A stretch of DNA of 36,998 nt from an uncultured bacterium (GTDB lineage Bacteria; Patescibacteriota; Saccharimonadia; Saccharimonadales; Saccharimonadaceae): the NCBI GenBank assembly GCA_903900345.1, contig CAIUMO010000019.1, positions 1-36,998 on the forward strand, read 5' to 3'. Below, in pieces: positions 162 through 33,375 of the stretch. Position numbers and translations under genes: made by a program. The first letter of the stretch is position 1; each line of letters starts with the position of its first letter. Below the pieces are notes generated by a model. The model was given only the letters and a program-made list of their open reading frames with translations. It made no database searches and was not told the DNA's origin.

Positions 162-3100
162 TTAATTAACAGTGAATGTGCCGCTGCTAGTAAAAGTATG
201 AATAGTATTGCCGCTGACCGTAGTCATTGTACCACCAGTCGCACTCATCGAGCCTGTAGGGTAGGAAATGATTACAATTCCCGAGCCACCGTGACCGCCA
301 GCTGCACTTGAATTACCGCCGCCACCGCCGCCGCCACCACCAGTATTGGTGGCACCTGCGGTACCTGCGGCGCTTGCAGTACCACCAGCCCCACCACCGC
401 CAGAACCACCTGCGCCAGGATTGTTAATATACGAGCCACCGCCACCACCACCGGCATAGGTCATTGCTGAACCGCTGATGGAATTTGAGGCTCCTGGGCC
501 ACCAGTTCCACCACTATTTGTAGAATTAAATGCAAGCCCAGCACCACCTGCGCCACCGCCGCCACAAGAGCCGTAATCTGGGCTACCTGTACTATTGCTT
601 GGTGTTCCGCCGTTATAACCTTGAACAGGGGAAACTGACGGTACGTTACCTAAACCTGTTGGATAACTAGGACTAGGGGTAACATATATACCACCACCAC
701 CAGAACCACCATTGTTATTGGAAGAGTTGATGGTCGTACCGTTTCCAGCACCACCACCGGTGGCCGTAATACTGCTAAAATTCGAATCACTACCCTTGAC
801 ATTGGAATTACCGCCATCACCAACCGTCACGGTGTAAGTTTGGCGATTTATAGCAAGAGAAGAATTATAAACAAACCCACCGCCACCGCCACCACCACCA
901 GCGAAAGCATTAATCATGGCGCTACCACCACCGCCACCACCAGCTACGGCTAGCACTTTGACAGAATATGTTTGTGGCACAACAGTGAACGTGCCATTGC
1001 TGGTAAATGTGTGAATGGTATTACCACCGGATGTAGTTATTGTACCGCCAGTTGCATTCATATAACCTGTGGGGTAAGAAATGATTACAACGCCAGAACC
1101 GCCAGTTGATCCAGCGCCTGAAGCACCAGACCCACCGCCTGCTCCCCCTCCAGTATTAGCGCTACCGTCAGTGCCTTTGACGCCTGACCCTGTAGCTCCG
1201 GCACCGCCGCCACCAGAACCACCGGCCCCAGCAGTACCTGACAGATAAGATCCACCGCCACCGCCACCGGCATAATAGACAGATGAGCCGCTGATTGAAT
1301 ATGATAATCCATTGCCGCCAGATCCACCATTGCTTGGCGATCCGTCGCCACCGTTTAGTCCTGCCGAACCAGCCCCGCCACCGCCACCAGCAGCTCCGTT
1401 GCTTGCTCCACCATTACCACCAGCATTTCCTTGCCCAGATGTTCCAGAAAATCCCGTACCTTGTGCGCTAGATCCACCTCCGGAGCCACCAGTTGATCCT
1501 CCGTAATGATTATAGCCCCATCCAGTACCACCACCACCACCTATCGCCACTAATGTACTAAATACAGAATTACCACCCTGTTTTCCGCCACGGCTGATAT
1601 CAGCAGGTGATGTACCAGGCAATCCACCGGCGCCCACTGTAACGGCTATACCAGAGGCAGAAGAGACCGAATATGCCGAATTGTAAATAAGACCACCGCC
1701 ACCGCCACCAGCACCGTAGTCATATCCGCTACCGCCACCACCAGCCACAGCTAAAACTTTGACAGAATATGTTCCTTGGGTGTCATTAAAAGTGCCACTA
1801 CTGGTAAAAGTGCCACTACTGGTAAAGGTGTGAATTGTATTGCTACCAGATGTAGTTATTGTGCCGCCAGTTGCTGTCATCGAGCCTGTGGGGTAGGAGA
1901 TAATGACTATACCAGAACCGCCATTTCCGCCACTATAATAATAAATAGGACCGCCATTGTATGATCCGCCGGCTCCGCCACCACCAGTGTTGGCGACACC
2001 ATTACTACCAGATGTATTAAGGGCTGCATCACCACCGCCGCCATTTCCGCCAAGTCCAACGTTTGTACCCCAAACTTCACCGCCACCGCCACCACCAGCC
2101 AGGTAGTATGTGCCAGAAATATTTTCACCTGCGGTTGATCCAATAATCGGGTTGATAACACCTAAACCGCCATTGCCGCTATTTACAACATTAGTCCCGT
2201 TGTTACCTGGACCACCGGCCCCACCACCGCCACCACTACCGCCGACCCAGCCAGCATCGATATAGCCAATGCCACCATTATATCCTTGCGAACCTAATCC
2301 ACCAGGGTTAGGTGATCCACCGGTTGTAATTGATCCGCCACCACCGCTACCGCCAGCACCACCGTATTGGCCACCGTGCGTTACACCAGCGCCACCTCCC
2401 TCGGCGGTAACATTTCCAAATGACGAATCGCCACCTTTCAAGCCGTTGCAGGCACAGCCATTAGGACCACCACCAGTCCCACCATTGCCGATTATGACTG
2501 AATAAGATTGAGAACTAACTGCAAAAGCTGGATTATAGACATAACCACCAGCCCCACCGCCCGAACCTGTATCACCGCCGCCGCCACCACCACCAACTAC
2601 AACTAATTTAATCGTTTGATTACCTGTGGCGGTTGTGTTGTTGTTCGGACTAGAGGCGCGCATTGTGCCGGACTGGCTAACGTCGCGACCGGCGATTGTA
2701 TTAGCGGCGTTAATAGTAACCTCGACTGTACTGGTTGTTTGCAATGCGGTTTGTCTGGTAACATCTGCTTGGCTGCTGTCGCTGGCTGTGGTATTTTCGG
2801 ATGTAGAGCTAGGGCTTGGATAATATTTAACACTAAAGCCGCCGACTGTTATGCCATCGACAAGTTGAATATCTTTGGCCTTACAAATTGTGCCCGATAT
2901 ACTTGGTGCGCAACTGGGTTGTTGCCACGGTACGCCTAATGATCCGTTAGCACAACCGATTATCGCGTAGTTAGCCGGTGCGACGACTCGACGCCACAGG
3001 CTGCTGACGCCATTTATAGTCTTGACGAAGTAAATGATATTCATCATGACTGGCTTGTTTTGATTAACTTGCGCACTGCTGCAATCATTAGGACTGTTTT

Positions 3101-3482
3101 GATAGATAAGGGTTTTTGTTGAAGCCGATGGATTACCAGTAGTTGTATAGGCGTTCAAAATTAACATTGTACCGTTCACGGAATCGGCATTATGAAAATT
3201 AGTGATGTCGTTACTGTAGCCCTGGGGGGAGGTGAGTGAAATGTTATTGGTGGCCAGGAAGGCGCCACTCAATTTGACATCTTGTTCGATACGATTCAGC
3301 GCATCTTGGACATTGTAAGCCAGAGCATTAGATCCACGAGTTGACAATACATCACCAGTCATATTGACGATGGCGCCGACAAAAATACCAATTACTAGAA
3401 TAACAATCGGCGCGACAATCAAAATCTCGACGATCGTAAAGCCTTGTTGATGTTGCTTAATTTTCTTCATGAATCCAAGCAT
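162..3482 (-). CDS. Giant prepilin with three tandem glycine-rich modules
   Basis: About 1100 aa. The N-terminus (KKIKQHQQGFTIVEILIV) is a type IV prepilin signal with a G-F cleavage site, Glu+5 and a hydrophobic helix, so the protein should be assembled or retained at the cell surface by the type IV pilus machinery. Residues about 30-290 form a pseudopilin-like head with several Cys. From about 290 there are three copies (starting near 294, 575 and 840) of a roughly 260-residue glycine-rich module, each opening with a VKVLAVAGGGG-type strand and closing with SGIVIISYPTG, then a T-I-H-T-F-T-S-S-G-T-F strand. The last strand is an orphan half module at the C-terminus. Start: the first ATG follows an extended -10 (TGCTAAAAT) by 12 nt; an internal ATG at 3470 gives a more typical leader peptide and is equally possible. 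Function is probably adhesion, by inference. GGN-rich codons make the DNA a CCACCGCC-like low-complexity tract. Confidence 0.85.
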   Translation of the reverse strand: MLGFMKKIKQHQQGFTIVEILIVAPIVILVIGIFVGAIVNMTGDVLSTRGSNALAYNVQDALNRIEQDVKLSGAFLATNNISLTSPQGYSNDITNFHNADSVNGTMLILNAYTTTGNPSASTKTLIYQNSPNDCSSAQVNQNKPVMMNIIYFVKTINGVSSLWRRVVAPANYAIIGCANGSLGVPWQQPSCAPSISGTICKAKDIQLVDGITVGGFSVKYYPSPSSTSENTTASDSSQADVTRQTALQTTSTVEVTINAANTIAGRDVSQSGTMRASSPNNNTTATGNQTIKLVVVGGGGGGGDTGSGGGAGGYVYNPAFAVSSQSYSVIIGNGGTGGGPNGCACNGLKGGDSSFGNVTAEGGGAGVTHGGQYGGAGGSGGGGSITTGGSPNPGGLGSQGYNGGIGYIDAGWVGGSGGGGGAGGPGNNGTNVVNSGNGGLGVINPIIGSTAGENISGTYYLAGGGGGGEVWGTNVGLGGNGGGGDAALNTSGSNGVANTGGGGAGGSYNGGPIYYYSGGNGGSGIVIISYPTGSMTATGGTITTSGSNTIHTFTSSGTFTSSGTFNDTQGTYSVKVLAVAGGGGSGYDYGAGGGGGGLIYNSAYSVSSASGIAVTVGAGGLPGTSPADISRGGKQGGNSVFSTLVAIGGGGGTGWGYNHYGGSTGGSGGGSSAQGTGFSGTSGQGNAGGNGGASNGAAGGGGGAGSAGLNGGDGSPSNGGSGGNGLSYSISGSSVYYAGGGGGGSYLSGTAGAGGSGGGGAGATGSGVKGTDGSANTGGGAGGGSGASGAGSTGGSGVVIISYPTGYMNATGGTITTSGGNTIHTFTSNGTFTVVPQTYSVKVLAVAGGGGGGSAMINAFAGGGGGGGGFVYNSSLAINRQTYTVTVGDGGNSNVKGSDSNFSSITATGGGAGNGTTINSSNNNGGSGGGGIYVTPSPSYPTGLGNVPSVSPVQGYNGGTPSNSTGSPDYGSCGGGGAGGAGLAFNSTNSGGTGGPGASNSISGSAMTYAGGGGGGSYINNPGAGGSGGGGAGGTASAAGTAGATNTGGGGGGGGGNSSAAGGHGGSGIVIISYPTGSMSATGGTMTTVSGNTIHTFTSSGTFTVN
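1791..1826. repeat. 18-bp tandem duplication inside the glycine-rich prepilin gene
   Basis: The unit AGTGCCACTACTGGTAAA occurs twice back to back. In the protein (minus strand) it duplicates the T-S-S-G-T-F strand at the junction of two glycine-rich modules. It is in frame and looks like recent replication slippage or unequal exchange. Confidence 0.9.
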
Positions 3483-3494
3483 ATTACTATGCGT

Positions 3495-3500
3495 ATTTTA
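3495..3500 (-). promoter_or_regulatory. -10 box of the giant prepilin gene
   Basis: Extended -10 TGCTAAAAT on the minus strand, 12 nt before the first ATG of the glycine-rich prepilin. This suggests the gene has its own promoter although it follows another prepilin gene by only 63 nt. Confidence 0.45.
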
Positions 3501-3545
3501 GCACGAGCGGTATAGGTCAACAATGCGAGATTAGCCCCAACTATG

Positions 3546-5087
3546 TTAGCGAGCGACACGGAACCCGACAGCCGAGGACGTGAAGCTGGGAACGTAGTAC
3601 AAAAACAGCGCCAACACGCCGTCGCCGCTGGCATCGCCCCAAGCGCCGCCACGGAAGAAGCCACGCAGGGCTGCATCGCTTGTAAATCCATATAGCTGGC
3701 CAATGCCTTGAGCACCACTCCAACTACTTGATCCACTAATGCCAGTACCAGATGGATAAGGATTAACGGCAAAAGTGCCACCAGACGCAGCTGTCCACTG
3801 ATACCAGTTCCAACTAGCCATGCCAGTTGGTTGTCCGCCAGTCATTGTGCCATTAGTCCACTCCCAAACATTTCCAGCAAAATCCCAAATAACTTGGCCG
3901 TTTGACAAAGTTAGGGTTCGTTTTTGGTTAGATGGCGAGGTGTTGCCAGTCAAATAATAACCGTCAGTGTCGTCAGAACTAGCTGCTAAAGCATTTGCGG
4001 GTGAATTATCATTGTGACCGCTGTAAATAAAACCATTACCAACTATGCCACTACTCCAGTTACTGGCGACGCTTAGCACGTTTTGGGCGATAGTCATCCA
4101 TTCAGCCTCGGTTATCAAGTGGCAACCAGTGCAGGCCGCTGCGGCTTCAGAGGTGGCGTCTAATCTTGAAAAGGCCTGAATCTCGACCCAATGGTTGCCT
4201 GAGTTTACGCTAGACTGATTAGCCCAATCTCTGATATAGCGAACGTTAATTGGATTAAATGCTGTTGTCTTGCCGGCCGATGACTCGGGGTATGTGCCAC
4301 TTTTGGCACTATCAAATACAGTTATCCAATTAACGTTGTCAACGCTAACCTCTGTCTTGGTGCCGTAGTAGGTCCGTGAGTCAGCGTAGTAATGCCAAAT
4401 CTTAAGCATATTAATACTATAGACTTGACCCAGATCGACTGAGGCTGGCTTCAAACCATAATCATCACCGTAATACGGATCAGTTGCTGTGTTGCCATCT
4501 GTCAATAGTGAGCTAGTAGCGGCTTTACCGGCCGCGACATTAACATTAGTGCCGCCATTCTGCGCAATACTGACCCATGGTGTGCCGGCGGCTGTCGACA
4601 CGGCATTGTTATTGCCATCATTCTTGGCCTCATATTTCATAACACAGAAATCTTTTGTACCATAAGTGGCACTGCCAGGCACAGGAATGAAACCTATTGG
4701 ACAAGCTGACGACACAAAAGTCGCATTAACAACTGTTTTTTGAGGGGTATTATAATTCAGGCTAACATTAACTTTCGAAATAGCCGATAATGTGCCGTAT
4801 GGACACGTTATCGTTACAGTCACAGTGACACTTGAAAGGTTAGCTGGTGTAATTGATTGGTTAGTCAAAGGTGATTGAGTTGTGCATGGATTGGTCGCCA
4901 CTGCTTTATAGCGTTGCAGATAATCATAGGCGATATTGCTGGCGCGAGCTTGCATGCGAGTTTCACCACCATCCTTGATGATCAATGCATACAGTTGATA
5001 GCCAGACATCAAAAAGGCCGCTGCAATAAACAGAGTGATTAGTAACTCTACGACAGTAAAGCCAGATTGTCTAATTTGCCTTGTCAT
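3546..5087 (-). CDS. Prepilin with discoidin-like and FGE/C-type-lectin-like domain; probable DGR target
   Basis: 513 aa. Residues 1-30 are a type IV prepilin signal (RQSGFTVVELLITLFI), followed by a short pilin-like head to about 125. Residues about 185-305 resemble an F5/8 type C (discoidin) domain (SVDLGQVYSINMLKIWHY, then VRYIRDW and HWVEIQAF). Residues about 310-513 resemble a formylglycine-generating-enzyme/sulfatase-modifying fold, related to C-type lectins (HLITEAEWMTIAQN, WDFAGNVWEWTNG, final VGFRVAR). The last 40 residues have the layout of a diversity-generating-retroelement variable region: constant RGG-W, G-VLAL, VPS and VGFR blocks separated by positions that are usually Asn (AAC/AAT) in a template. 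The 110 bases 3551-3660 contain only 7 adenines on the coding strand and are visibly GC-rich. The ATG overlaps the stop of the upstream prepilin gene by 4 nt, so the two are translationally coupled. Likely a variable surface-binding pilin; no reverse transcriptase or template is in the window. Confidence 0.8.
   Translation of the reverse strand: MTRQIRQSGFTVVELLITLFIAAAFLMSGYQLYALIIKDGGETRMQARASNIAYDYLQRYKAVATNPCTTQSPLTNQSITPANLSSVTVTVTITCPYGTLSAISKVNVSLNYNTPQKTVVNATFVSSACPIGFIPVPGSATYGTKDFCVMKYEAKNDGNNNAVSTAAGTPWVSIAQNGGTNVNVAAGKAATSSLLTDGNTATDPYYGDDYGLKPASVDLGQVYSINMLKIWHYYADSRTYYGTKTEVSVDNVNWITVFDSAKSGTYPESSAGKTTAFNPINVRYIRDWANQSSVNSGNHWVEIQAFSRLDATSEAAAACTGCHLITEAEWMTIAQNVLSVASNWSSGIVGNGFIYSGHNDNSPANALAASSDDTDGYYLTGNTSPSNQKRTLTLSNGQVIWDFAGNVWEWTNGTMTGGQPTGMASWNWYQWTAASGGTFAVNPYPSGTGISGSSSWSGAQGIGQLYGFTSDAALRGFFRGGAWGDASGDGVLALFLYYVPSFTSSAVGFRVAR
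3549..3664 (-). other. Candidate DGR variable region (VR)
   Basis: This is the 3' end of the prepilin gene, just before the stop. On the coding strand invariant-looking blocks (CGTGGCGGC, GTGTTGGCGCTG, GTTCCCAGC, GTCGGGTTCCG) alternate with codons such as TTT, TAC, TAC, TTC, TCC, TCG and GCT where known templates carry AAC. Adenine is strongly depleted. The GC-rich tail GTCGGGTTCCGTGTCGCTCG could serve as the initiation-of-mutagenic-homology site. The call is by pattern; the template repeat is not in this window. Confidence 0.6.
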
Positions 5088-7105
5088 TGATTTTTACTGG
5101 TTACCATGTGAACTAAGTTATCAGATTCGGTTATATAATATAAGTTAAATTTTTGACACGACGAGCCAGTGGTGCAAAGCGATCCATCTTGATTGAGCGG
5201 CTGATAGATATATTGGTTTTGTGATGAGCTTGTTATTGATGTTGACGATATAGACGTAACAATGAATGAGCCACTGCTGGTAAAGGTGTGAATTGTATTG
5301 CCATTATTTGTAGTGACATTTCCGCCAGTTGCTGTTATAGAGCCAGTAGGGTAGGAGATTATGACGATTCCTGAGCCACCAGCGCCACCGCCCGCGAATC
5401 CGCCTGTGCCGCCGCCACCACCACCAGTGTTCGCAGTACCAGGTCCGCCTGGTACAGTACCATCACCTCTAATAGGACCTGTGCCGCCACCACCATTACC
5501 ACCGACACCAGTTCCACCATTACCACCAGCACCACCACCGCCGCCGTAATAAGTCGATGTACCAGATATAGAGTTCTGAATACCAACTCCTCCAGCACGT
5601 CCATTACCATCAGTAGCTGTTAATCCGGCCCCACCAGCACCACCACCTGAACCGCCGCCAAGAGAACCTTGCCAGCCATGGCCACCGTTATATCCTTGTC
5701 CGCTAATACCAATTCCTCCCGCGCTTCCAGGACTGTTCCATGATCCGCTAGAACCACCACCGCTGCCTCCAGGGGAACCTGCACCACCATCCCACCATCC
5801 GCCGCCGCCACCGCCTATCGCATTAACACCAGTAGTTATATCGGCTGTGTCACTTATATTACGACCATAAACTTCAACTCTGGCTGTACGGTTCATACCA
5901 GTGCCAACAGCACAACATCCGACATAATCTCCAGCGCTATAGCCAATCTTCAGGCCTATACCATTACTAACATCGTCACTATTCCAGTCAGCCTCATTAT
6001 TATATCGGCTACCCCAACGTGCACCGTTACCTGATCCACCTAGGTCTCCAAGCTTTGTGCCATGCTGCATAATTCCGGTCTGAGTGCTGAAATATGTCGC
6101 ATTCCAATATGGTTGTCCTGTTGGACTACCCCAGTTGGCATAAGTATTAAAACCAGTTAACGCTGTTACATTTGACCAAGTTGAGTTTCGCAGCCAGCGC
6201 ATATCGCCAGCGTCTGGCCATCTGGCCATTATGTCGGTTAGTCGCATTTCATTAAACGATCTGAATTTAGCATCAGCATTATTCCTGGTTGCGTCAGTCG
6301 AGTTAAGTGTGTTAGTGGTAGTCCAGTAGTTAGCATCGTAGTTAAAAGTTGAGCTTGGTTGCGTAGCCTTCATTAACATTGTCCAGCCGCCGCCGTTATA
6401 TGTCATATCGCAATAGACTTGGAATGGTGCATTAACGCCAGCACCATCTGGATCAATCCAATATGTTCCATCGGCATAGTTGATTCCATCTAATTTTAAT
6501 GAGTAGCAACTTTTTCCAGGATTAGCCGATGATGATCCGTAGGTGTTAGACCCACTTGGAACAATAGATGAGTTTTGACCATAATAATTACTACTACCGC
6601 CACTGCCAACGGTTACAGTATAAGTTTGAGGCGTCACCCCGTAGGCTGTATTGTAGGTAACGCCACCACCGCCGCCACCGCCACCAACGTCGCCACCACC
6701 GCCGCCACCGCCACCAACAGCTAAGGCTTGTATTACACCAGAGAAAGGTACAGCACTGGGTGTTTGACTGTTCGTTGTTGCCACTGCCAATGATGTACTT
6801 GAAGTATCTGGCGATCCTGGTGCGATTAGGGATTTTGGATCAATATCGCGTAGAGTGGTTTGCTGAGCCGCTTTGGTATTCATAACGCTAGTTGATGGAT
6901 AACTACCAGTTGAAGTACTACCGTCAGTTCCCGATAGATAAAAAGTCTCTAACTGAGTTGCAATTGTTTCGATGTCAGTTTTACGTTCGGCGTCACGAGC
7001 GCTTGCCTGAGCTCCATTCAGATTAACTACGCCTAGAACAAGCAAAATACCCATTACTGCGATGATAATCATAAGTTCAACAATAGTAAATCCACGACGT
7101 TTCAT
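5084..7105 (-). CDS. Prepilin with a fibrinogen-like domain inserted in a glycine-rich module
   Basis: 673 aa. MKRRGFTIVELMIIIAVMGI is a canonical type IV prepilin signal with a very short leader, followed by a pseudopilin-like helix (ASARDAERKTDIETIATQLE) typical of major pilin and GspG-like proteins. A glycine-rich module begins near residue 125 but is interrupted at about residue 180 by a fibrinogen/COLFI-like domain (SCYSLKLDG, YWIDPDG, PFQVYCDMT, GGGWTMLMKA; ending near VEVYGRN, about residue 415). The module then resumes (AIGGGGGGWWDGG to SGIVIISYPTG and IHTFTSSGSF), followed by a C-terminal tail with two Cys. The start lies 6 nt after a -10-like TATGCT, so it may be leaderless. Its stop overlaps the next prepilin gene by 4 nt. 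Inferred role: surface adhesin displayed on or with a type IV pilus. Confidence 0.8.
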   Translation of the reverse strand: MKRRGFTIVELMIIIAVMGILLVLGVVNLNGAQASARDAERKTDIETIATQLETFYLSGTDGSTSTGSYPSTSVMNTKAAQQTTLRDIDPKSLIAPGSPDTSSTSLAVATTNSQTPSAVPFSGVIQALAVGGGGGGGGDVGGGGGGGGVTYNTAYGVTPQTYTVTVGSGGSSNYYGQNSSIVPSGSNTYGSSSANPGKSCYSLKLDGINYADGTYWIDPDGAGVNAPFQVYCDMTYNGGGWTMLMKATQPSSTFNYDANYWTTTNTLNSTDATRNNADAKFRSFNEMRLTDIMARWPDAGDMRWLRNSTWSNVTALTGFNTYANWGSPTGQPYWNATYFSTQTGIMQHGTKLGDLGGSGNGARWGSRYNNEADWNSDDVSNGIGLKIGYSAGDYVGCCAVGTGMNRTARVEVYGRNISDTADITTGVNAIGGGGGGWWDGGAGSPGGSGGGSSGSWNSPGSAGGIGISGQGYNGGHGWQGSLGGGSGGGAGGAGLTATDGNGRAGGVGIQNSISGTSTYYGGGGGAGGNGGTGVGGNGGGGTGPIRGDGTVPGGPGTANTGGGGGGTGGFAGGGAGGSGIVIISYPTGSITATGGNVTTNNGNTIHTFTSSGSFIVTSISSTSITSSSQNQYIYQPLNQDGSLCTTGSSCQKFNLYYITESDNLVHMVTSKNQ

Positions 7106-7145
7106 GTTATTAGCATAAGGTTTTTAAAGCCAATTCGCAAGTGAC

Positions 7146-8165
7146 TCAAATTTCCAATGGTTCTTGTTCGATCTGAATATGGAATTTGTCGCGTATAGCG
7201 CCGATAATCTCGTCACGGGCCTCGGCTAGATCATTGTACGAAGTGGCTGATTCATTAACTAACACCAAGGCGTTCTTGTCATAAACACGCATGCCATGAA
7301 TTAGTTGGCCTTTTAATCCGACGTTTTCAATCAGCCAACCGGCTGGAACTTTATAATGACCGTCACCCATATCGTACAAAGGAATATTTGGATTAATTGC
7401 TTTTAAATCATTCAATTGCCAGGTTTCGACGATGGCGTTTTTAAAGAACGATCCAGTATTAGGCGTGTCTTTGGGGTTGGGGAGTTTACTATTTCTAATT
7501 TCAATGACGGTATTTCGAATTATTTCTTGGGTATATATTTTAATATTGTGATCATCAAGATACCTTTGTAAAGAATCGTAAAAGGGTGGCTGTGGTAGGT
7601 TTTTTGACAGTTTCAAAGTAATGTAGGTAATAATATATCGCCCTTTGTCATAACTTCGGAATATACTGTCGCGATAGGCAAAACCGCAGTCGGTGTTTTG
7701 TAATGTCACAAAAGTGTCATTCAAATTATCGTAGGCTTCCAAGGATTGCAAAGTATCGGCGATTTCTTGACCATAAGCGCCGACATTTTGAACTGGCGAT
7801 GCACCGGCTGTACCTGGTATACCAGACATAGCCTCGACTCCACTTAGGCGCAGGTCAACTATACGTTTGACGACTGAATCCCATATTTCGCCTGCGCCTA
7901 TGCGAATAGTCGTCGTGTTGATATCGTCGGCGACAATTTCGAAGCCAGGTATGCGCATATGGATAACAATTCCACTATAACCCTCGTCGCGAGCAATGAC
8001 GTTACTGCCGCCACCAATTACGAATATCGGTAATGATTTAGATTTAGCTTCATGACAGATTGCTGCTGTTTCGTCGGCAGTTCGAACTTCAGTCATAAAG
8101 CGGGCAGTGCCACCAAGCCTCATAGTAGTGTAATTTTTGAGCGGAATGTTGGTGTGAATATCCAT
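7146..8165 (-). CDS. murB: UDP-N-acetylenolpyruvoylglucosamine reductase
   Basis: Reduces UDP-GlcNAc-enolpyruvate to UDP-MurNAc with NADPH and FAD, the second committed step of peptidoglycan synthesis in the cytosol. Visible family motifs: the FAD-binding GGGSNVIARDEGY block, SGIPGTAGASPVQNVGAYGQ, YRDSIF with the catalytic Ser that protonates the intermediate, and NTGSFFKNAIV near the C-terminus. The compact layout with YRDSIF fits the type I (E. coli-like) group. Length about 339 aa is normal. I chose the ATG at 8165 (MDIHTNIPLKNYTT), where family similarity begins and which lies 9 nt after a perfect TATAAT; a TTG start at 8186 would add 7 residues but lies upstream of that promoter. The prepilin cluster follows 40 nt downstream on the same strand. 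Confidence 0.93.
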   Translation of the reverse strand: MDIHTNIPLKNYTTMRLGGTARFMTEVRTADETAAICHEAKSKSLPIFVIGGGSNVIARDEGYSGIVIHMRIPGFEIVADDINTTTIRIGAGEIWDSVVKRIVDLRLSGVEAMSGIPGTAGASPVQNVGAYGQEIADTLQSLEAYDNLNDTFVTLQNTDCGFAYRDSIFRSYDKGRYIITYITLKLSKNLPQPPFYDSLQRYLDDHNIKIYTQEIIRNTVIEIRNSKLPNPKDTPNTGSFFKNAIVETWQLNDLKAINPNIPLYDMGDGHYKVPAGWLIENVGLKGQLIHGMRVYDKNALVLVNESATSYNDLAEARDEIIGAIRDKFHIQIEQEPLEI

Positions 8166-8174
8166 ATGGTTTTG

Positions 8175-8180
8175 ATTATA
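8175..8180 (-). promoter_or_regulatory. -10 box of murB
   Basis: TATAAT on the minus strand, 9 nt before the ATG at 8165. Transcription would start at or within about 2 nt of the start codon, so the mRNA is probably leaderless. No Shine-Dalgarno is visible. Confidence 0.6.
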
Positions 8181-8201
8181 GCTCAAGATTGATTGACATG
8201 G

Positions 8202-23947: not shown

Positions 23948-24022
23948 GGTCTCATCGTCTAACGGTTAGGACACCAGGTTTTCATCCTGGCAATCCGGGT
24001 TCGATTCCCGGCGAGATCACCA
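23948..24022 (+). tRNA. tRNA-Glu (anticodon TTC), integration target
   Basis: Anticodon stem CCAGG/CCTGG around TTTTCAT gives TTC; T-arm CCGGG-TTCGATT-CCCGG; discriminator A and encoded CCA at 24020-24022. Acceptor GGTCTCA against CGAGATC leaves an A7-C66 mismatch. The 3' half overlaps the antisense 3' end of the serine recombinase gene by 41 nt, the usual look of a tRNA attachment site, where the element supplies the tRNA 3' end. Confidence 0.93.
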
Positions 24023-25694
24023 AACGGAAATTATCCGAGTGTAAAGCTCGAAACAATGAATTCACCTCTGTTAAAAGGGGTGAATTTTGTTTTCCAGGAC
24101 ATATTTCTGAGTACCTAGGCATTTTGTCAAAAATCACTCCAAAGAACTGGGCTTTCTTGATCGGGTCTATCTGTTGCAACAGTAGTTTATCCATGTTTTC
24201 CAGGAAGTATTTGACCCTGGCGATAACTTTCTCGGTATTTTTCGGCTGAGCCTCATTCGTGGTCTTTTTGTCGTTTTCAAGGGTTTGTATCTCATTTTCT
24301 ATGCGCATTAGGTCTTCCTCCATGTATTTTAGTGCCGTTTGAGATGTAAGCGACTTCATGCTTCGGACTGTCATCATGGCTTCGTCTTTTAGTTCCTTGA
24401 TGCGTTCGTCATAGTTTTCGACGACCTTAATGACGTCAATCTGACGCTTTTCCCATTCTTTAGCAACCGCGCTCACTACCATATCTATTTGTTCCTGAGA
24501 TACTGTTATATGACCGATAAACTCAGCGACATTAGCTTCCAGCTCATCTTTGGGAATACGGAAGTAATGACCGTGATTACTGCAGTGATATGCCGGATAG
24601 AGTTTTCCATTCTTACCTCGTGAAGCGCTCCCAAGTAGTGGGCGACTACAAATCGGACAACCGATATACTTACGGTACGCGTAATCCTGATTATGTACGC
24701 CTTTATTGGCTAGATATGGTGGTGCCTGTTTGGTGTAGACCTCTAACTCATCACCATTTTCAATAATCCCAAATTTGCCTTTATGAGCCCGATTAAATAG
24801 CTCAATGTCTACAATTCCGTCAAAGACACAGCGCACAGGTTTGTTCTCGGTCCATTTTTCGACATTTACGCCTGCATAGATATGATGACGAGCTAATTTC
24901 CATAGTGCAGTAACTGTCAGCGGCCCTCCACCAGATTGTGAGACGATTTTAGTGCGATCTTGCTTGCTTCTTTGATAGCGAATTCGAGTCTTAAAACCCA
25001 GTGCATTTAACTTGTCGCATATCTGTTGGTCGCTATATATTCCGACTGCTCTTAACTCAAACATCTTTTTAACTAACGGGGCTTCGGTTGGGTGAGGTTT
25101 TAGTACAGTGCGTTTGCCGTTTCTAGTTTCAATCTTTTCGCTAACAAAACCGTATGGAGCTTGGCGCATCCAATAGCCTAGACGCGTATAGCGTACTTCT
25201 GCGCCTATCATACGGCTCAAGATGTCTCGTAGCTCATCTTTGGCTCTTTCAGCTTCTAGGTATTCAGCCTTCTTGCTTGGTGAGTATTTGCTCCACGAGT
25301 ATTCAACGCCTAAATGTTCAAGTGTATTTACTTTCTGAGAGCTAATGACGCCGTAAATATCGACAAGCGTTACATTTATCTGTTCAAGTTGTAATTTAAG
25401 CTGGTCATACGGCGATCCGCCACCACGCGTAAAACGGTCTATGGATTTAATGACAAAGAATTGAATGTCGTTTTTAGCGTCCTTGCAGTAATTTATAGCC
25501 AGCTGCATGGGCTGTTCTATTTTAGATCCCGATTCCAGGAAGACGAATTGCTCTTTGACGTTTAGGTTATGTGTTTCGGCGTAGCGTAGTAGTTGTTCGC
25601 GCTGAGCTTCCGGTGAATCGCCGTCAGTACCTTGCTTGGTAGTTGAGACGCGTATAGCGATAACAGCATTAGGGCGTTTTATTTCGCTTTGCAT
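23982..25694 (-). CDS. Serine recombinase (resolvase/integrase family)
   Basis: 570 aa large serine recombinase that probably integrated this accessory island. N-terminal resolvase domain with catalytic Ser17 in AIRVSTTKQ, later IKSIDRFTRGG. The recombinase domain follows (GYWMRQAPYGFV, KKMFELRAVGIYSDQQICDKLN), then a zinc ribbon (CPICSRPLLGS ... YHCSNHGHYF) and a coiled coil at about 425-490. The last residues (ISPGIEPGLPG) are antisense to the tRNA-Glu T-arm and the stop is formed opposite its anticodon arm. The natural end of the protein has therefore been replaced by whatever the attachment site encodes. Translation is coupled to a 45-aa gene, with a 16-nt overlap. A tRNA target is less typical for serine than for tyrosine integrases. 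Confidence 0.92.
   Translation of the reverse strand: MQSEIKRPNAVIAIRVSTTKQGTDGDSPEAQREQLLRYAETHNLNVKEQFVFLESGSKIEQPMQLAINYCKDAKNDIQFFVIKSIDRFTRGGGSPYDQLKLQLEQINVTLVDIYGVISSQKVNTLEHLGVEYSWSKYSPSKKAEYLEAERAKDELRDILSRMIGAEVRYTRLGYWMRQAPYGFVSEKIETRNGKRTVLKPHPTEAPLVKKMFELRAVGIYSDQQICDKLNALGFKTRIRYQRSKQDRTKIVSQSGGGPLTVTALWKLARHHIYAGVNVEKWTENKPVRCVFDGIVDIELFNRAHKGKFGIIENGDELEVYTKQAPPYLANKGVHNQDYAYRKYIGCPICSRPLLGSASRGKNGKLYPAYHCSNHGHYFRIPKDELEANVAEFIGHITVSQEQIDMVVSAVAKEWEKRQIDVIKVVENYDERIKELKDEAMMTVRSMKSLTSQTALKYMEEDLMRIENEIQTLENDKKTTNEAQPKNTEKVIARVKYFLENMDKLLLQQIDPIKKAQFFGVIFDKMPRYSEICPGKQNSPLLTEVNSLFRALHSDNFRLVISPGIEPGLPG
24059..24093 (+). terminator. Probable terminator of tRNA-Glu inside the recombinase gene
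   Basis: AATTCACC ... GGTGAATT (8-bp stem, 12-nt loop) followed by TTGTTTT on the plus strand, 37 nt beyond the CCA end. It is antisense to the recombinase C-terminus. Confidence 0.65.
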
Positions 25695-25816
25695 AAGTCC
25701 TCGCTTATGATGTCGACTAGTATTGCAGCCAGCATTTCAATGCGCTCTTCGGGAGATAATGAATAAACTTCTGGAAGTTCGATTTCTTTATTTTGTGTAC
25801 CCTTTGTTCTACCCAT
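25679..25816 (-). CDS. Small protein upstream of and coupled to the recombinase
   Basis: 45 aa: MGRTKGTQNKEIELPEVYSL, then SPEERIEMLAAILVDIISED and a short tail. A basic start and one amphipathic helix; no named family recognised. Its stop lies 16 nt inside the recombinase gene, so translation is probably coupled. Size and position suggest an accessory or excision-control factor for the recombinase (inference). Its promoter carries a palindrome that could be its operator. Confidence 0.65.
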   Translation of the reverse strand: MGRTKGTQNKEIELPEVYSLSPEERIEMLAAILVDIISEDLCKAK

Positions 25817-25831
25817 TTTTGCGATTTCCAA

Positions 25832-25854
25832 CTATCCTTTATAAGGATAGTATA
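25832..25854 (-). promoter_or_regulatory. Promoter with palindromic operator of the recombinase operon
   Basis: TATACT (25849-25854, minus strand) is followed immediately by the perfect inverted repeat CTATCCTT-ATA-AAGGATAG (25832-25850), which would cover the transcription start. A half-site (GGGATAG) lies at about 25866. This is the layout of a repressor operator. Confidence 0.6.
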
Positions 25855-26018
25855 GCACCTAAATAGGGATAGCTGCAACACTTTTTTTCATAAAAATGTT
25901 GTATAAAAATCCCCACTAAGGTAATTGCATATTTTTGATTCATTTCACCACTGTTATTACTTGCATTATTTTCTCTCTTCTTTTATATATACATATAGGC
26001 ACAAAGATTAGGAGAAAG

Positions 26019-26807
26019 ATGAAAAGGTATGAGCCCAAACAAAGGTATAGTGTTTCCAAGTCTCAATTAGATATATTACTGTATTTACTTAAGTATCGGT
26101 TTTTAACAAGTGATTTATTAGCAGACATATTAGACAGGGATAGATCAACTATATATGAAAGATTATCAGTATTAGTCAGTCAAGGTTATATAGCAAAGCA
26201 ATATGACAAAACTTTTAGACTTAGAGGAAGATCGGCAACTTATTGTCTAGCGCCAGCAGGCATTCGCTATTTAAAACATCATGGTCATGAACGTACTCAG
26301 CTTCATTACAAGAATAGATACTTTACTGACGAGCAAATCGATACCCAGCTATTGTATATAAAGATTTGGTTAATACTCCGCAAACACTATGCAGATAAGT
26401 TCTATGGCTATACCAAATACCAACTTAATCCGAACAGCTATATTAAACCGACTCCTCATTTAAAACTTGAAGGAATTACTGACGCGATACCTGATTATTT
26501 TGTTGAATTATTTCCGGCATTTACATTGAGCTGGAGAATTAAAAAGCGCATCAACCAGCATATAGAGGCCGCAGATGAATCCGAATACCGATATCCGCAT
26601 TTACTGCTCATTGCTGGCAACAGCAGCACTGAACGACGAATTATAAAAATGACCGCCGATACATACGCAGGTTTTGATATATTTACGACCATCTTAGATA
26701 GGTTGATGGGTGGCGAAAAGGAGATTTGGTTACGACCGGAGGATGTGTATTTGGATGAATATAAGACTACGCAAAGGGTTCTATTGCCAATCGAGATTGA
26801 GAAATAA
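26019..26807 (+). CDS. Replication-relaxation family protein
   Basis: 262 aa. The N-terminal winged-helix-like region (SVSKSQLDILLYLLKYRFLTSDLLADIL, RDRSTIYERLSVLVSQGYI, then CLAPAGIRYLKHHG) matches replication-relaxation (Rep_relax) proteins carried by plasmids and integrative elements, linked to origin or relaxase functions and transcriptional control. The C-terminal half has no clear domain (ERRIIKMTADTYAGFDIF). The frame opens at 25935, but the ATG at 26019 has a clear Shine-Dalgarno (AGGAG, 5 nt away) and gives the family-like basic N-terminus; the upstream 28 codons look like a spurious hydrophobic extension. It sits 30 nt before the restriction-modification gene and is probably the element's own maintenance protein. 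Confidence 0.8.
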   Translation: MKRYEPKQRYSVSKSQLDILLYLLKYRFLTSDLLADILDRDRSTIYERLSVLVSQGYIAKQYDKTFRLRGRSATYCLAPAGIRYLKHHGHERTQLHYKNRYFTDEQIDTQLLYIKIWLILRKHYADKFYGYTKYQLNPNSYIKPTPHLKLEGITDAIPDYFVELFPAFTLSWRIKKRINQHIEAADESEYRYPHLLLIAGNSSTERRIIKMTADTYAGFDIFTTILDRLMGGEKEIWLRPEDVYLDEYKTTQRVLLPIEIEK

Positions 26808-26821
26808 CCGAATATTTAAGT

Positions 26822-26827
26822 TATAAT
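26822..26827 (+). promoter_or_regulatory. -10 box of the restriction-modification gene
   Basis: TATAAT ending 9 nt before the ATG at 26837; no Shine-Dalgarno, so leaderless. Confidence 0.55.
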
Positions 26828-26836
26828 ATTATTAAT

Positions 26837-29800
26837 ATGAACGAAACAGACCGAACAGCAATTGTCCTGAGGTATTTAGACGAAGTCCGTGAACAATTCG
26901 AGAGTGGTCATGCTATTGAACACGCATACAGACCAGCACTTAAAGCACTAATGAGCAAATTTGAGGATACTGTTGCCGTCAATGACCCGAAGCATTCTGA
27001 GCACGGCGCTCCAGACTTTATTTTTTTAAAGAAATCTAATCTCAAGATAATCAAAGGACATGCTGAAGCAAAAGACATTGGCAAGGATTTGGATAAAGAA
27101 GAAAAATCTGATCAGATGTCGCGCTATGCGGGTTATGCCAACCTTATACTAACTGACTACCTGGAATTCCGTTTCTTTCGTAACGGTGATAAATACGAAA
27201 CAATAAGCCTAGGTTGTGTAAAGAATAATGTATTAAACTTAACTCCAGAAAACGGTGAACGTCTGATTTGTGAGCTTGAAGCGTTCTTAGATCAGACTCC
27301 AGAAAGCATCAAAAGTGGTAAGCGTTTAGCTCAAATCATGGGTGGCAAGGCCCGTCGTATTCGCGATAACGTATCGGAATATCTTACAAGTGACGATATT
27401 GACAGTACTGAGTTGAGCAGAATATACGAAATGATGACTAAACTCTTGGTGCATGACCTAGAGCCAAAGAAATTTGCCGATATGTATGCTCAAACGCTTG
27501 TATATGGCCTTTTTGTTGCTCGTTATGGCGATGATACCCCAGATAGCTTTACGCGTTCAGAGGCCCGTGATTTGGTGCCAAAAAATAACCCATTCTTACG
27601 CCACTTCTTTGATCATATTGTAGGGCCAAATTTTGATACTCGATTAGGATATATTGTCGACGAGTTATGTGAGATTTTTAGCGTTAGTAATGTTCAAGAG
27701 ATTGTGCATAAGCATTTACGTATTCAGGACATTACTAATGACGACAAAGATCCGATCATCCACTTTTATGAGGATTTTTTACAAGAGTATGATCCTAAAA
27801 TACGCAAAGATATGGGCGCATATTACACACCGACACCAGTCGTTAAATTTATTATTCGCCACGTAGACAAGATTCTAAAAGAAGATTTCGGTATTACAAA
27901 AGGCCTTGCTAGTATAGAGACCTTTACGAAGAAGGTTAATATAGGGCAAAAGGTTTCCATCGTTAAGACTGGAAATACCCGCGTTACTAGTACGTCTGTA
28001 ATAGATAAAAAGTTTCACAGAGTTCAGATACTTGATCCTGCAGTCGGTACTGCAACATTCTTAAACGAGACCATAAAATTCATTTACGAACAGTTCAAAG
28101 GGCAAGAGGGACGTTGGCCAAGCTACGTAGCCGAAAATCTTATTCATCGTCTACATGGCTTTGAACTAATGATGGCACCGTACACGATTGCACATTTGAA
28201 ACTGGGTATGACTCTGAAAGAAACTGGCGTAGAAAATCTAAAAGATCGCCTGGGGGTATATTTGACTAATACACTCGAAGAGGGCACGCCGACACAGCAA
28301 GATCTGTTTAGCTTTGGGCTAGCACAGGCCGTTAGCGAAGAGAGTCAGCATGCTGCTGAGGTTAAAAATGAACGACCGATTATGATTGTAATGGGTAACC
28401 CTCCTTATAGTGGCGTAAGCTCTAACGAGACAGAATATGCTAATAAGCTAATCGCGAAATACAAAGTTGAACCAGGCGGTATGCAGAAACTTCAAGAACG
28501 TAAGCACTGGCTAAATGATGATTATGTAAAATTTATAGCTTTTGCTGAGGATATGATAAACAAGAATGGCGACGGTATTGTTGCTATGATTACTAACAAC
28601 GGGTATCTTGATAACTCAACGTTCCGCGGCATGCGTTGGCAACTTCTAAAATCTTTTGATAAAATCTACATCCTAAACTTGCATGGTAATGCGAACAAAA
28701 AAGAAGTTTCCCCTAATGGAGATAAAGACGAGAATGTATTTGACATTATGCAAGGCGTGGGTATTATTATTGCAATTAAGAACGGCGACGATAGTAGTGG
28801 TTTGGCGGATATTTATCATGCTGAGATTTATGGTAAACGACAGTATAAATTTGACATGTTGAATATGGGAGTAGAATTCAAGAAGATTGAATCGTTAGCT
28901 CCAAGTTATTATTTTGTTCCAAAAAACAATATAGGAAAAGATGAGTACGATCAAGGTGTCGGTGTTGATGAGCTTTTCTGTAAATATGTTACCGGTATTG
29001 TTACTATGGGTGACGATTTTATTATTAATGAAAATCCCAATGTCATAGCGGAACGAGTGGAAAAATTACAAAACGGCGATTACACTAAAGATACACTTAA
29101 TAACGAGTTTAGGCTTGGCAAAAACTATGCTGATTTCATATTAGCTAATGCGTCGAAGCTGCAAGTCGACCCATTGAAGATCATTAAACTAAGTTATAGA
29201 CCGTTCGATGAACGCTATACTTACTTCGATAACAAAGTTTTGTGGCGATGGCGAGAAGAGGTAATGCGCAACTTTATTGGGCACGAAAACATCGGCCTAG
29301 TAACAACTCGGCTACAAAAGGAAAATCCAGGAGCGTTCATTACAGCGACTATCATGGGCCATAAAACTTATAATGCCTACGACTCAAATTCAGTATTTCC
29401 ACTCTATATTTATCACAGTGACGGATCAATTACTCCGAATATCAAGCGCGATCTAGCTCTAAATCTTCTTGAGGGGATGTCGTTCAAATTGGGTAACGAA
29501 GTTATATTCCTAAAATATCAAGAAGACAAAATTGAACGAGACTACGTATTAGCAAAGTCACAACGCGAAAAGCAGAACGTATATCCAGCCGATCTATTAG
29601 ATTATATATACGCGACATTGAATAGCCCTTCGTATAAAGAAAATTACAAGGAGTTCCTAAAGGCTGACTTTCCTCGAATTCCAAAACCCAAGGACGGCTT
29701 AGAATTTTGGCGCTTAGCACAGCTAGGCAATGAGCTTCGCAATCTACATCTCATGAGATCATCATTGATTGATGATTACAGCACTACATTTCCAGTACCT

Positions 29801-30100
29801 GGTGATAACATAGTTGCTGATGTTAGGTATTTTGCACGTTCGGTAGATATTAGCATTGCTGGTAAACCAGACACAAAAGAAAAATATAACGAAGAAAATG
29901 CCGTATATATTAACAAGACCCAATATTTTGGTAACGTACCAAAAGAAATATGGGAGTTCTATATCGGTGGGTATCAACCTGCTCAAAAATGGCTAAAAGA
30001 CCGCAGGGGTCGCGAACTAACCAATAATGACATTGAACACTACCAACGTATAATAAAAATCCTCATCGAAACTGACAGGATTATGAAGCAAATCGGATAG
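26837..30100 (+). CDS. Single-chain restriction-modification enzyme (type ISP/IIG-like)
   Basis: 1087 aa fusion. An N-terminal PD-(D/E)xK nuclease is visible as PDFIF (Asp60) and EAK (77-79). A helical connector (about 170-340, with YARGLDDTP-like YGLFVARYGDDTPDSF) leads to an N6-adenine methyltransferase: AdoMet motif I LDPAVGTATFLNE at about residue 399, catalytic motif IV NPPYSG at about 521. The C-terminal third is a target-recognition region ending in YIGGYQPAQKWLKDR and HYQRIIKILIETDRIM, as in type ISP enzymes. No helicase domain is present, so it resembles type ISP enzymes that lack the motor, or type IIG. It would methylate and cut with one protein and guard the island. There is no separate specificity or antirestriction gene beside it. 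Confidence 0.88.
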   Translation: MNETDRTAIVLRYLDEVREQFESGHAIEHAYRPALKALMSKFEDTVAVNDPKHSEHGAPDFIFLKKSNLKIIKGHAEAKDIGKDLDKEEKSDQMSRYAGYANLILTDYLEFRFFRNGDKYETISLGCVKNNVLNLTPENGERLICELEAFLDQTPESIKSGKRLAQIMGGKARRIRDNVSEYLTSDDIDSTELSRIYEMMTKLLVHDLEPKKFADMYAQTLVYGLFVARYGDDTPDSFTRSEARDLVPKNNPFLRHFFDHIVGPNFDTRLGYIVDELCEIFSVSNVQEIVHKHLRIQDITNDDKDPIIHFYEDFLQEYDPKIRKDMGAYYTPTPVVKFIIRHVDKILKEDFGITKGLASIETFTKKVNIGQKVSIVKTGNTRVTSTSVIDKKFHRVQILDPAVGTATFLNETIKFIYEQFKGQEGRWPSYVAENLIHRLHGFELMMAPYTIAHLKLGMTLKETGVENLKDRLGVYLTNTLEEGTPTQQDLFSFGLAQAVSEESQHAAEVKNERPIMIVMGNPPYSGVSSNETEYANKLIAKYKVEPGGMQKLQERKHWLNDDYVKFIAFAEDMINKNGDGIVAMITNNGYLDNSTFRGMRWQLLKSFDKIYILNLHGNANKKEVSPNGDKDENVFDIMQGVGIIIAIKNGDDSSGLADIYHAEIYGKRQYKFDMLNMGVEFKKIESLAPSYYFVPKNNIGKDEYDQGVGVDELFCKYVTGIVTMGDDFIINENPNVIAERVEKLQNGDYTKDTLNNEFRLGKNYADFILANASKLQVDPLKIIKLSYRPFDERYTYFDNKVLWRWREEVMRNFIGHENIGLVTTRLQKENPGAFITATIMGHKTYNAYDSNSVFPLYIYHSDGSITPNIKRDLALNLLEGMSFKLGNEVIFLKYQEDKIERDYVLAKSQREKQNVYPADLLDYIYATLNSPSYKENYKEFLKADFPRIPKPKDGLEFWRLAQLGNELRNLHLMRSSLIDDYSTTFPVPGDNIVADVRYFARSVDISIAGKPDTKEKYNEENAVYINKTQYFGNVPKEIWEFYIGGYQPAQKWLKDRRGRELTNNDIEHYQRIIKILIETDRIMKQIG

Positions 30101-30141
30101 CCGTTCGATTCTATATTAGAGCCAAACATGAAACTATATGG

Positions 30142-30147
30142 TAATAT
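30142..30147 (+). promoter_or_regulatory. -10 box of the sce7726-family gene
   Basis: TATGGTAATAT has TG one base before TAATAT (extended -10). The ATG at 30154 follows after 6 nt; leaderless arrangement. Confidence 0.45.
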
Positions 30148-30153
30148 TGATAC

Positions 30154-30795
30154 ATGAGGGGTAAGCAGAAGCATTATTTAGTTTGCGATATGCATAACCA
30201 TAAAATAAAAAAAACACACTTTGATACAAAAGATTTCGAAATACGCCAAGCGCTAGTTCGTGATTTAGAGGTTGCCTATGCAAACGATCCAGATCACAAG
30301 ATTGTAGAGGAACTTGGTATTAATCACGGTTCAGTACGTGCCGACGTCGCCGTTATTAATGGAATTATGGATTGTTACGAGATTAAAAGTGATCGCGATA
30401 CTTTACAGCGACTACCCGAACAGATTCGTGCATACAACGCAGTATTTGACGAGGTGACATTAGTAGTTGGCTTTACCCATATTTATGAGGCAATCGAAAT
30501 GATTCCTGATTGGTGGGGCGTTACTATCGCCAAAACTAACATTCATGGAGATATAGTTTTCAGCACCATTCGTAAAGCTGAGCCAAATACCAACAAGGAC
30601 AAGGATGCCATCGCGCGTCTACTTTGGCGAGATGAAGCTCTCCGCATTTTAGAGAATAAGAAGCAGGATGTCGGCGTGCGCTCAAAGCCTAAGGTGTTTA
30701 TTTATGAGCGGCTTGTCAGTACTCATAGTATTGACGAGCTATCACTTATTGTTCGTCAATCTTTGCGCTCTCGCCCGATGTGGCGAGCTGCTTAG
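30154..30795 (+). CDS. sce7726 family protein (PD-(D/E)xK-like)
   Basis: 213 aa. The core GSVRADVAVINGIMDCYEIKSD, followed by TLQRLPEQIRAYNAVFD, is the sce7726-family signature; Asp in RADV and Glu-x-Lys in YEIK look like a PD-(D/E)xK nuclease active site. The C-terminal part (LLWRDEALRILENK) is also typical. Members often lie beside sce7725/beta-family genes, and here the convergent neighbour is a beta-family gene whose 3' end overlaps this one by 50 nt. Function in cells is not established; a nuclease role in defence is inference. The gene starts 53 nt after the restriction-modification gene but has its own -10 box. Confidence 0.82.
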   Translation: MRGKQKHYLVCDMHNHKIKKTHFDTKDFEIRQALVRDLEVAYANDPDHKIVEELGINHGSVRADVAVINGIMDCYEIKSDRDTLQRLPEQIRAYNAVFDEVTLVVGFTHIYEAIEMIPDWWGVTIAKTNIHGDIVFSTIRKAEPNTNKDKDAIARLLWRDEALRILENKKQDVGVRSKPKVFIYERLVSTHSIDELSLIVRQSLRSRPMWRAA

Positions 30796-31876
30796 TAATC
30801 AATGTTAGGTGATGATTCAGGCCAGCTTTGAGCCAGGTTGTTGGGTTGCCAGTTTTTGTATTATCAGCTGCTCTCTCGGCAATGTATTTATCTCCTGCGC
30901 TAAAGTTCTCACCCTTGAAAAAGTTTTGTCCAATAATTATTTGTGCTAAGGCGGGGTATTGTTTATGTCCTGCGCCCTTTTTATTACGCAAACCTTCGCC
31001 GCGGCTCACTTCCCATTGAGTGTCATCCGTATACCGGACGCTCGCGCTAGCGTTAGTTCCCGGTATTTGGCCGTAGAAGATAGGATGCTGTATAGCGTAG
31101 TCCGAATAATAAGGGAGCCGTGATGGGTTGGCCTCGCGTAAGTCGTTCCATATTCGCCAGTCATGACGCTGAATTTGGTTCTGGGAGTGCTTATCGAACT
31201 CAGACAAATCTTTGGGGAATGCACCTCCAGAAAGAATCAACGTTCGCCAACTATTGATTGACGGCAATCTGGAAAGTTGGTCTTTTACCTTCTTGGCGTC
31301 ATCGCCTTTGTCAACAATGCCTAAATCTATTAAAAGGTCTGTATTTGAGATATCGAGTTTATTTTGTGTCACAAAATCGTTGATGATTTGGCTTAAATTG
31401 TCTTCGTTGTCTAAATTATGTCGATCAATGCGAATACATAATCCGTAGCTGCTATTGGCTGCATATTCAACAGCAACCTGGCGTGTGGCCGTGTCGGCAT
31501 CTGTACTAACCACCGGTATAATATGGGTGACTGGTATTAATGTGGCGTGAAATAATTTAAGTGAGTCGTTAAGTATCTGTTTCAATGTCATAGAGCGAAG
31601 GTCGCCATCAATTAAGTGAACATCTACGAATGCAGTACTGTCCATCGGGCAGCACTTATTCAGTTCCTCAACAGTACTAGGCAGGACATTCTGCAGTACG
31701 GTCTTTGAATCACTGAGTATTTTATTATAGTCGCCTTTGTCACGTTTCGGAGCGGGCATTATTAACTCAAAGAGTGGAGTGATGTTTCCTCTCACTTTAG
31801 TGTCGAGAGTCGCTAACGCATCTCTTTCTGCTTTTTTCCATCTTAGTATTGGTATATAACTTTTTATAGTAACCAT
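30746..31876 (-). CDS. Beta family protein (phage T4 beta / sce7725-like)
   Basis: 376 aa. The N-terminus (SYIPILRWKKAERDAL, then ITPLFELIMPAP) and the C-terminal region (FYGQIPGTNASASVRYT, WEVSRGEG, QYPALAQIIIG) match the beta-protein family found in phage and in bacterial islands; the activity is unknown. It begins 9 nt after the HigA/ImmA stop, with Shine-Dalgarno AAGGA, so it is the third gene of the higB-higA operon. Its last 50 nt overlap the convergent sce7726 gene, so the two mRNAs would be complementary at their 3' ends. The pairing of beta and sce7726 genes, here tied to a toxin-antitoxin operon, suggests a joint defence function (inference). Confidence 0.8.
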   Translation of the reverse strand: MVTIKSYIPILRWKKAERDALATLDTKVRGNITPLFELIMPAPKRDKGDYNKILSDSKTVLQNVLPSTVEELNKCCPMDSTAFVDVHLIDGDLRSMTLKQILNDSLKLFHATLIPVTHIIPVVSTDADTATRQVAVEYAANSSYGLCIRIDRHNLDNEDNLSQIINDFVTQNKLDISNTDLLIDLGIVDKGDDAKKVKDQLSRLPSINSWRTLILSGGAFPKDLSEFDKHSQNQIQRHDWRIWNDLREANPSRLPYYSDYAIQHPIFYGQIPGTNASASVRYTDDTQWEVSRGEGLRNKKGAGHKQYPALAQIIIGQNFFKGENFSAGDKYIAERAADNTKTGNPTTWLKAGLNHHLTLITKQLATSGESAKIDEQ

Positions 31877-31885
31877 GTCGTTTCC

Positions 31886-33082: not shown

Positions 33083-33087
33083 AATGC

Positions 33088-33375
33088 CTACTTTATTACC
33101 CATTTGTTATATTCTTGATGCGTACCAATTTTTATTACTTGAATCACACCGGTTTTATATGCAATTTTTACCCATAGCCTATATTTATTGCCAGCTATGT
33201 TGAAAATGGTATTGCCTCCACCTGGCGTATCGGCTTTTGGGTATCTTGCCTTAAGCTCCATGGGGTTTTGCCACTTTGCGTTAGTAGCCTCATTCTGCCA
33301 AGAGTTAATTGACTTGGCGGAATCTGCATGGAATCGCGTAAAGTCGTCTAGCGCTTTTTTACCTAATACCTTCAT
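33088..33375 (-). CDS. higB: HigB-family toxin
   Basis: 95 aa RelE-superfamily mRNA interferase of the HigB (PF09907) type: MKVLGKKALDDFTRFHADS, then SINSWQNEATNAKW, LKARYPKAD and NTIFNIAGNKYRLWVKIAYKTGVIQVIKIGTH, the characteristic beta-sheet core. It cleaves mRNA, probably on the ribosome. It precedes the antitoxin gene, as is usual for higBA. A TATACG-like -10 lies 9 nt before the ATG, with a palindrome further upstream for autorepression. Confidence 0.9.
   Translation of the reverse strand: MKVLGKKALDDFTRFHADSAKSINSWQNEATNAKWQNPMELKARYPKADTPGGGNTIFNIAGNKYRLWVKIAYKTGVIQVIKIGTHQEYNKWVIK

Follow-up and report, generated by a model that had tools for sequence, protein, structure and literature searches.

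The prepilin operon and the target gene

The window (the whole stretch of DNA that was analysed, 36,998 nucleotides) is the whole of contig C19 of a 788-kb genome that is 97.4% complete in 29 contigs. The target gene (3546-5087) is the middle one of three prepilin genes adjoining murB (7146-8186; PF02873, MurB_C), a conserved neighbour that marks the operon; all four genes are on the minus strand. Prepilin 1 (5084-7105), whose stop and the target gene's start overlap, has glycine-rich and fibrinogen/collagen-C-like domains. Prepilin 3 (162-3482) has three glycine-rich domains according to Pfam. The order murB, prepilin 1, 2, 3 is common to the loci L109, L140, L144 and L145. Based on the open reading frame, Pfam and an alignment with 20 relatives, the target gene encodes 513 aa consisting of a prepilin N-terminus, an FGE/C-type-lectin module with a discoidin-like insertion, and a variable region (VR). 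The protein ends in RGGAWGDASGDGVLALFLYYVPSFTSSAVGFRVAR, and its named relatives are mostly labelled Candidatus Saccharibacteria.

The prepilin 2 part of the gene (4704-5087, minus strand; residues 1-128) contains the motif GFTVVEL; its orthologue is, in most of the genus, a prepilin of about 130 aa that stands alone. The carrier had been read as a type IV prepilin, which was borne out by the class III signal motif GFTVVELL with a hydrophobic N-terminal helix, by matches of the prepilin-2 family profile to solved pilins and by orthologues in 25 of the 28 genus genomes; PF07963 scored 20.3 bits, just below its cut-off of 21.2. In 21 of these 25 genomes the open frame is just 128-146 aa. The stand-alone prepilin 2 ends in ...NTPQQTLNVATYVKP or similar, whereas at the same position the window continues into SACPIGFIPVPGS, with which the FGE module starts. 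By its identical prepilin-2 ending, locus L109 appears to belong to genome G229. Hence, the genome with the closest template to our VR (see below) apparently has an unfused prepilin 2. A domain scan showed that the end of prepilin 2 carries LamG in genomes G140 and G198, and in G156 a glycine-rich insert together with a LamG-like region was recognised on visual inspection. The end of prepilin 2 (4704-5087 in the window; L144, L145 and L148 in relatives) thus carries no added domain, LamG, a glycine-rich insert with a LamG-like region, or the FGE-discoidin-VR head, which indicates an exchange site for binding domains.

The FGE/C-type-lectin module (3549-4691, minus strand; residues 133-513) is a known scaffold of targets of diversity-generating retroelements (DGRs). 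An AlphaFold2 model of the module gave a pLDDT of about 80-98 outside the insertion; a model of the whole protein, at pLDDT 39, was of too low quality. The nine highest-ranking Foldseek matches of the module were, without exception, variable proteins of DGRs, namely TaqVP, Mtd variants and Treponema TvpA. VIA-align against TaqVP gave Z 17.1 and 2.8 A over 212 residues, while the next rows had Z of at most 12, and a PDB sequence-profile search with the module returned TaqVP (5vf4) as its sole match (E 3e-5). The scaffold proposed from sequence was thereby confirmed by structure and profile matches, although PF03781 (FGE-sulfatase) itself reached only 19.2 bits in the target protein, below the cut-off of 23.3. 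The module shares the fold, and we do not claim that it is a formylglycine-generating enzyme.

Within the module lies a discoidin-like domain (F5/8 type C, galactose-binding-like; 4152-4556, minus strand; about residues 178-312), detected by PF00754 (1.8e-8) and PF22633 (1.5e-8), with the Pfam match spanning residues ~191-300. The insertion is private to the window protein and is missing from all 20 aligned relatives. The sequence-only reading had assigned discoidin and fibrinogen domains to neighbouring prepilins. Pfam and the alignment located the discoidin-like domain inside the target protein itself; the fibrinogen part stood, as the fibrinogen/collagen-C-like domain of the neighbour at 5084-7105. 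Among phage records, the discoidin domain (4152-4556) is nearest to a minor tail protein encoded by the Arthrobacter phage Mimi, with 62% identity across 90 aa, and tblastn matches to known phages were restricted to discoidin-like tail proteins.

Elsewhere in the window, at 23982-33375 and judged by reading alone, the gene at 23982-25694 looks like a large serine recombinase, that at 26837-30100 encodes a long protein resembling DNA methylases or restriction proteins, and 31886-33375 holds a HigB/ImmA-like pair. This gene content suggests an integrated island or defence region.

The variable region and its sister templates

The VR core (3555-3653, minus strand) comprises the 33 codons RGG...GFRV, as delimited by a gap-free alignment to sister templates and by adenine-directed differences. 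It is located at the C-terminus of the target protein, inside the C-type-lectin fold. The adenine-poor block plus the shared borders extend to about 3549-3664. Our recount of the coding strand of 3551-3660 agreed with the 7 adenines in 110 bases reported earlier (the others being 37 G, 34 C and 32 T). With 27.5% adenine in the gene body, where each 110-base stretch holds at least 20 adenines, the binomial probability of this count is 2e-8; when both strands of the window are compared, 3551-3660 is the 110-base stretch with the lowest adenine content.

Related DGR cassettes are found in the same genus, where 18 of the 28 genomes encode the FGE module. Full cassettes, with an FGE prepilin, bAvd, reverse transcriptase (RT) and template, occur on G200:C40, G186:C12 and G186:C30, while G229:C6 has an RT, Avd-like fragments and a template. 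The template of the sister-species cassettes is RGGNWNNGGNAGVLTLNLNNAPSNTNTNIGFRVSR, and the G200/G186 template type reads RGGNWNNGGNAGVL-LNLNN--SNTNTNIGFRV. The sister bAvd matches PF22296 (3e-18) and scores 79.1 bits against the NCBIfam Avd model, whose cut-off is 80. The sister RTs have 381-406 aa with IPIGNLTSQLFAN; PADLOC and NCBIfam name them generically, and the DGR label comes from the adjoining bAvd, template and VR. A strict template pattern was found in seven of the 295 family genomes, always about 0.3 kb from an RT. In six cassette VRs, every non-adenine base equals that of the own template (the G117 template in the case of G105), and 31-72% of the adenines are changed. Remote VRs also follow a template on another contig, with agreement at 71 of 72 non-adenine bases in G186 and at 69 of 72 in G200.

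A full cassette was also found on a putatively viral 53-kb IMG/VR contig (L115), at 531-7702, beside a large protein kinase/ATPase/TPR gene. It has its VR at 4500-5780, RT at 6400-7515 and template at 7550-7702, and its VR agrees with its own template at all non-adenine bases, as in the six genus cassettes. In G156 (L069, 1173-4203) an RT adjoins an FGE prepilin VR; a template was found neither in the 6 kb covered at this locus nor by the strict pattern across the genome, and this cassette is possibly decaying. Genome G114 (L042, L062, L066, L087-L091) encodes nine FGE prepilins, whose VRs are in no case template-like at their silent sites, and it has no template; these prepilins apparently form a large family that evolves without a DGR.

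Of the G229 template, the window VR has kept five out of 25 adenines, as against 35 out of 41 non-adenine bases at codon positions 1-2 and 27 out of 33 at third positions. Changes thus affect 20 of 25 adenines versus 12 of 74 other bases of this template, which is a sister template rather than the cognate one (Fisher p = 1.3e-8). Similar results were obtained with the L115 template, of which six of 27 adenines, 34 of 40 non-adenine bases at codon positions 1-2 and 25 of 32 at third positions are kept (p = 5.8e-8). The proposal that variable positions correspond to template Asn codons held throughout, as all ten template Asn columns are NNY codons in the window. Across 32 VR copies the Asn columns are hypervariable, with an entropy of 3.0 versus 1.1 bits. 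The cognate template peptide is predicted to be approximately RGGNWNNASNDGVLTLNLNN[A/N]PSNTNTNIGFRVAR, which would fit the non-adenine bases of 3555-3653. At codon positions 1-2 the window VR differs from the nearest (G229) template in six non-adenine bases. Genus templates differ less among themselves, so that the cognate template is probably none of the sister templates compared.

The silent sites were evaluated with synonymous-codon nulls, drawn at random or according to gene usage, GC3 or the usage in other VRs (20,000 draws). For the G229 and L115 templates these nulls gave means of 11-14 third-position matches and maxima of 20-23. In the rest of the module, third-position identity with relatives is saturated at 0.32-0.48, and the figure for the remainder of the gene is 0.40. 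Inside the VR it is 0.51-0.65 with most copies that have template-like VRs and 0.16-0.42 with drifted copies. Hence, the silent-site likeness is confined to the VR and tracks DGR templates, which points to template copying rather than ordinary descent or protein selection. Third-position identity is 57-71% among the genus templates themselves and 82% between the window VR and the G229 template. Because the genus templates diverge from each other to an equal or greater extent, the silent sites give no proof that the window VR is any older than a living template.

A second FGE prepilin with a drifted VR-like tail is encoded on contig C8 of the same genome (G000:C8; L007, 1216-2451 and 2399-3406). 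Its third positions match at 12 of 31 sites, and from its sequence this tail looks long out of use. We rejected the idea that a single template serves both C8 and the window VR, as third-position agreement between C8 and the window VR is just 0.37. The prepilin gene beside the C8 FGE prepilin ends, as judged by eye, in a LamG-like region.

Missing machinery and competing explanations

The sequence-only reading had suggested a remote target whose RT and template lie elsewhere in the genome. Neither an adenine-rich near-copy of 3549-3664 nor a DGR-type RT was found in the 97.4%-complete, 29-contig assembly. This is half of what that reading had itself named as grounds for its rejection, seen in a fragmented assembly rather than a complete genome. 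Searches of the assembly with the VR DNA, the sister template DNA and a degenerate pattern gave chance matches only, and the strict template pattern is absent from the window genome. There was no RVT_1 match in the assembly and no match to the sister RT protein in a protein search run without positive control; likewise, a search without positive control gave no match to the Avd protein in the assembled part of the genome. Since the assembly holds no RT and no Avd, the locus is not classed as a complete DGR cassette. An RT query against the viral_contigs set returned no relative, in a scan that is insensitive since the L115 contig, which was found via its target protein, carries such an RT.

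The 3' end of the window VR differs from that of most cassettes as well. It reads GCTCGC, whereas most cassette VRs end in TCCCGG or GCCCGG. Downstream of the window VR the longest perfect stem is 5 bp (threshold 6 bp), while some cassettes do have a stem. In the phage BPP-1, an IMH-like 3' end and a downstream hairpin are required (PMC3240598). A long stem is not decisive here, because the G117 and G105 cassettes are likewise without one.

Is a DGR history needed at all? The tail could be an ordinary FGE/C-type-lectin C-terminus, shaped by point mutation together with selection acting at the ligand face. RGG...GFR is a conserved fold motif, and G114, G206 and G162 do have drifted FGE prepilins whose silent sites are not template-like. 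However, this explanation would leave unaccounted for the adenine-directed change (p = 1.3e-8), the NNY codons at 10 of 10 Asn columns and the silent-site match to DGR templates in the VR only, and we regard it as very improbable. The earlier interpretation that the tail is a variable region of a DGR proved right by descent: the tail has homologues in VRs beside a template, bAvd and RT, and it differs from sister templates mainly at adenines. We therefore hold with high confidence that 3549-3664 is a DGR variable region by origin.

Two explanations that share this origin differ in what happened afterwards. The VR may be a frozen relic, written by a DGR that was then lost, with one fixed binding face that has since undergone ordinary mutation. 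The absence of the machinery from the assembly fits this explanation, as do the non-adenine replacements at codon positions 1-2 and the altered VR end without a stem. The C8 copy in the same genome would then represent a later stage of freezing. Leftover targets are also retained by Treponema denticola isolates without RT and template (PMC4891356). Against a relic, the silent sites of the window VR have drifted no further than the templates of sister species, and we consider its chances about even. Alternatively, the VR may be a working remote target, with a cassette that lies in unassembled DNA of the chromosome, a plasmid or a virus and still rewrites it in trans. Its 82% silent-site identity with the G229 template is at least as high as the likeness between living templates of different species. 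Moreover, four of the five RT loci beside FGE-prepilin targets in the genus are on contigs of 3.6-14 kb, so that cassettes are easily lost from MAGs. The remote VRs of G186 and G200 do follow the template of their own genome, and the L115 contig provides a full cassette. The 97.4%-complete assembly without RT, Avd or template, and the loss of the IMH-like end and stem, argue against a working target, which we consider possible at somewhat less than even odds. That the VR is still active in the window lineage is accordingly a tentative suggestion.

The best overall explanation, to which we assign a probability of roughly 0.9, is a DGR-descended VR in a module that was fused to prepilin 2, with the machinery absent from the assembly. 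Judging from the footprint, the last writing of the VR would have been a mutagenic copying of the template repeat, which randomised ten AAY (Asn) codons plus a small number of further adenines. The VR forms part of the variable face of the FGE/C-type-lectin module. This module, with its discoidin-like insertion, became fused to the C-terminus of the minor prepilin 2 in the window lineage. The resulting head may be displayed on a type IV pilus, where it would probably bind a host cell or another surface. The RT, bAvd and template would either be on unassembled or extrachromosomal DNA, rewriting the VR in trans, or have been lost recently.

Comparison with known systems

The four genus cassettes (G200:C40, G186:C12, G186:C30 and G229:C6) and L115 resemble the window in their FGE prepilin target domain, VR layout and C-terminal VR. 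Their template reads RGGNWNNGGN(A/D)GVL-LNLNN..., and their RT, bAvd and template adjoin the target, whereas the window assembly is without these components. Their targets also have a different prepilin N-terminus and, unlike the window protein, no discoidin insertion. The TaqVP protein of Thermus aquaticus (5vf4) is the best fold match of the window module, at about 20% identity and on another carrier protein. The DGR of Treponema denticola (TvpA) likewise has FGE-sulfatase/C-type-lectin targets, with remote targets in addition to leftover targets in isolates without RT and template (PMC4891356). This DGR belongs to a different phylum, and its targets are not described there as fusions with a minor prepilin operon of type IV pili (PMC4891356).

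Pilins with an added C-terminal domain are known from PilB of Streptococcus sanguinis (PMC8179133) and PilX2 of TM7x (PMC12206443), and in this respect they are similar to the window protein; their added domains are not described as DGR-diversified. Host binding of TM7x, a Saccharibacterium, is linked to type IV pili and is lowered by deletion of the minor pilin PilX2 with its additional C-terminal domain (PMC12206443). Earlier reports of pilin-like DGR targets are mentioned in another source (PMC6642488). What is new here is the fusion of a VR module, with a private discoidin insertion, to a minor prepilin from a conserved operon linked to murB.

In a global DGR survey, targets encoded by CPR genomes (clade 2) were typically without recognisable transmembrane or other conserved domains (PMC8144416). 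In the window and its sister species, by contrast, the carrier of the DGR target is plainly a type IV prepilin. The G229 genome, which is without the head, and the window, which has it, form a before/after pair for the movement of a DGR target. It is conceivable, though we think it unlikely, that DGR target modules are plug-in heads travelling in Saccharibacteria. One of them would have joined a conserved minor prepilin, and a cassette on unassembled or mobile DNA would go on diversifying it in trans, so that an obligate episymbiont would tune its pilus to new host surfaces. Other microbes reportedly serve as hosts to all cultivated Patescibacteria, and little is known of how these hosts are recognised (PMC12206443). 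The fused, DGR-descended head offers a testable idea of how host binding may be tuned.
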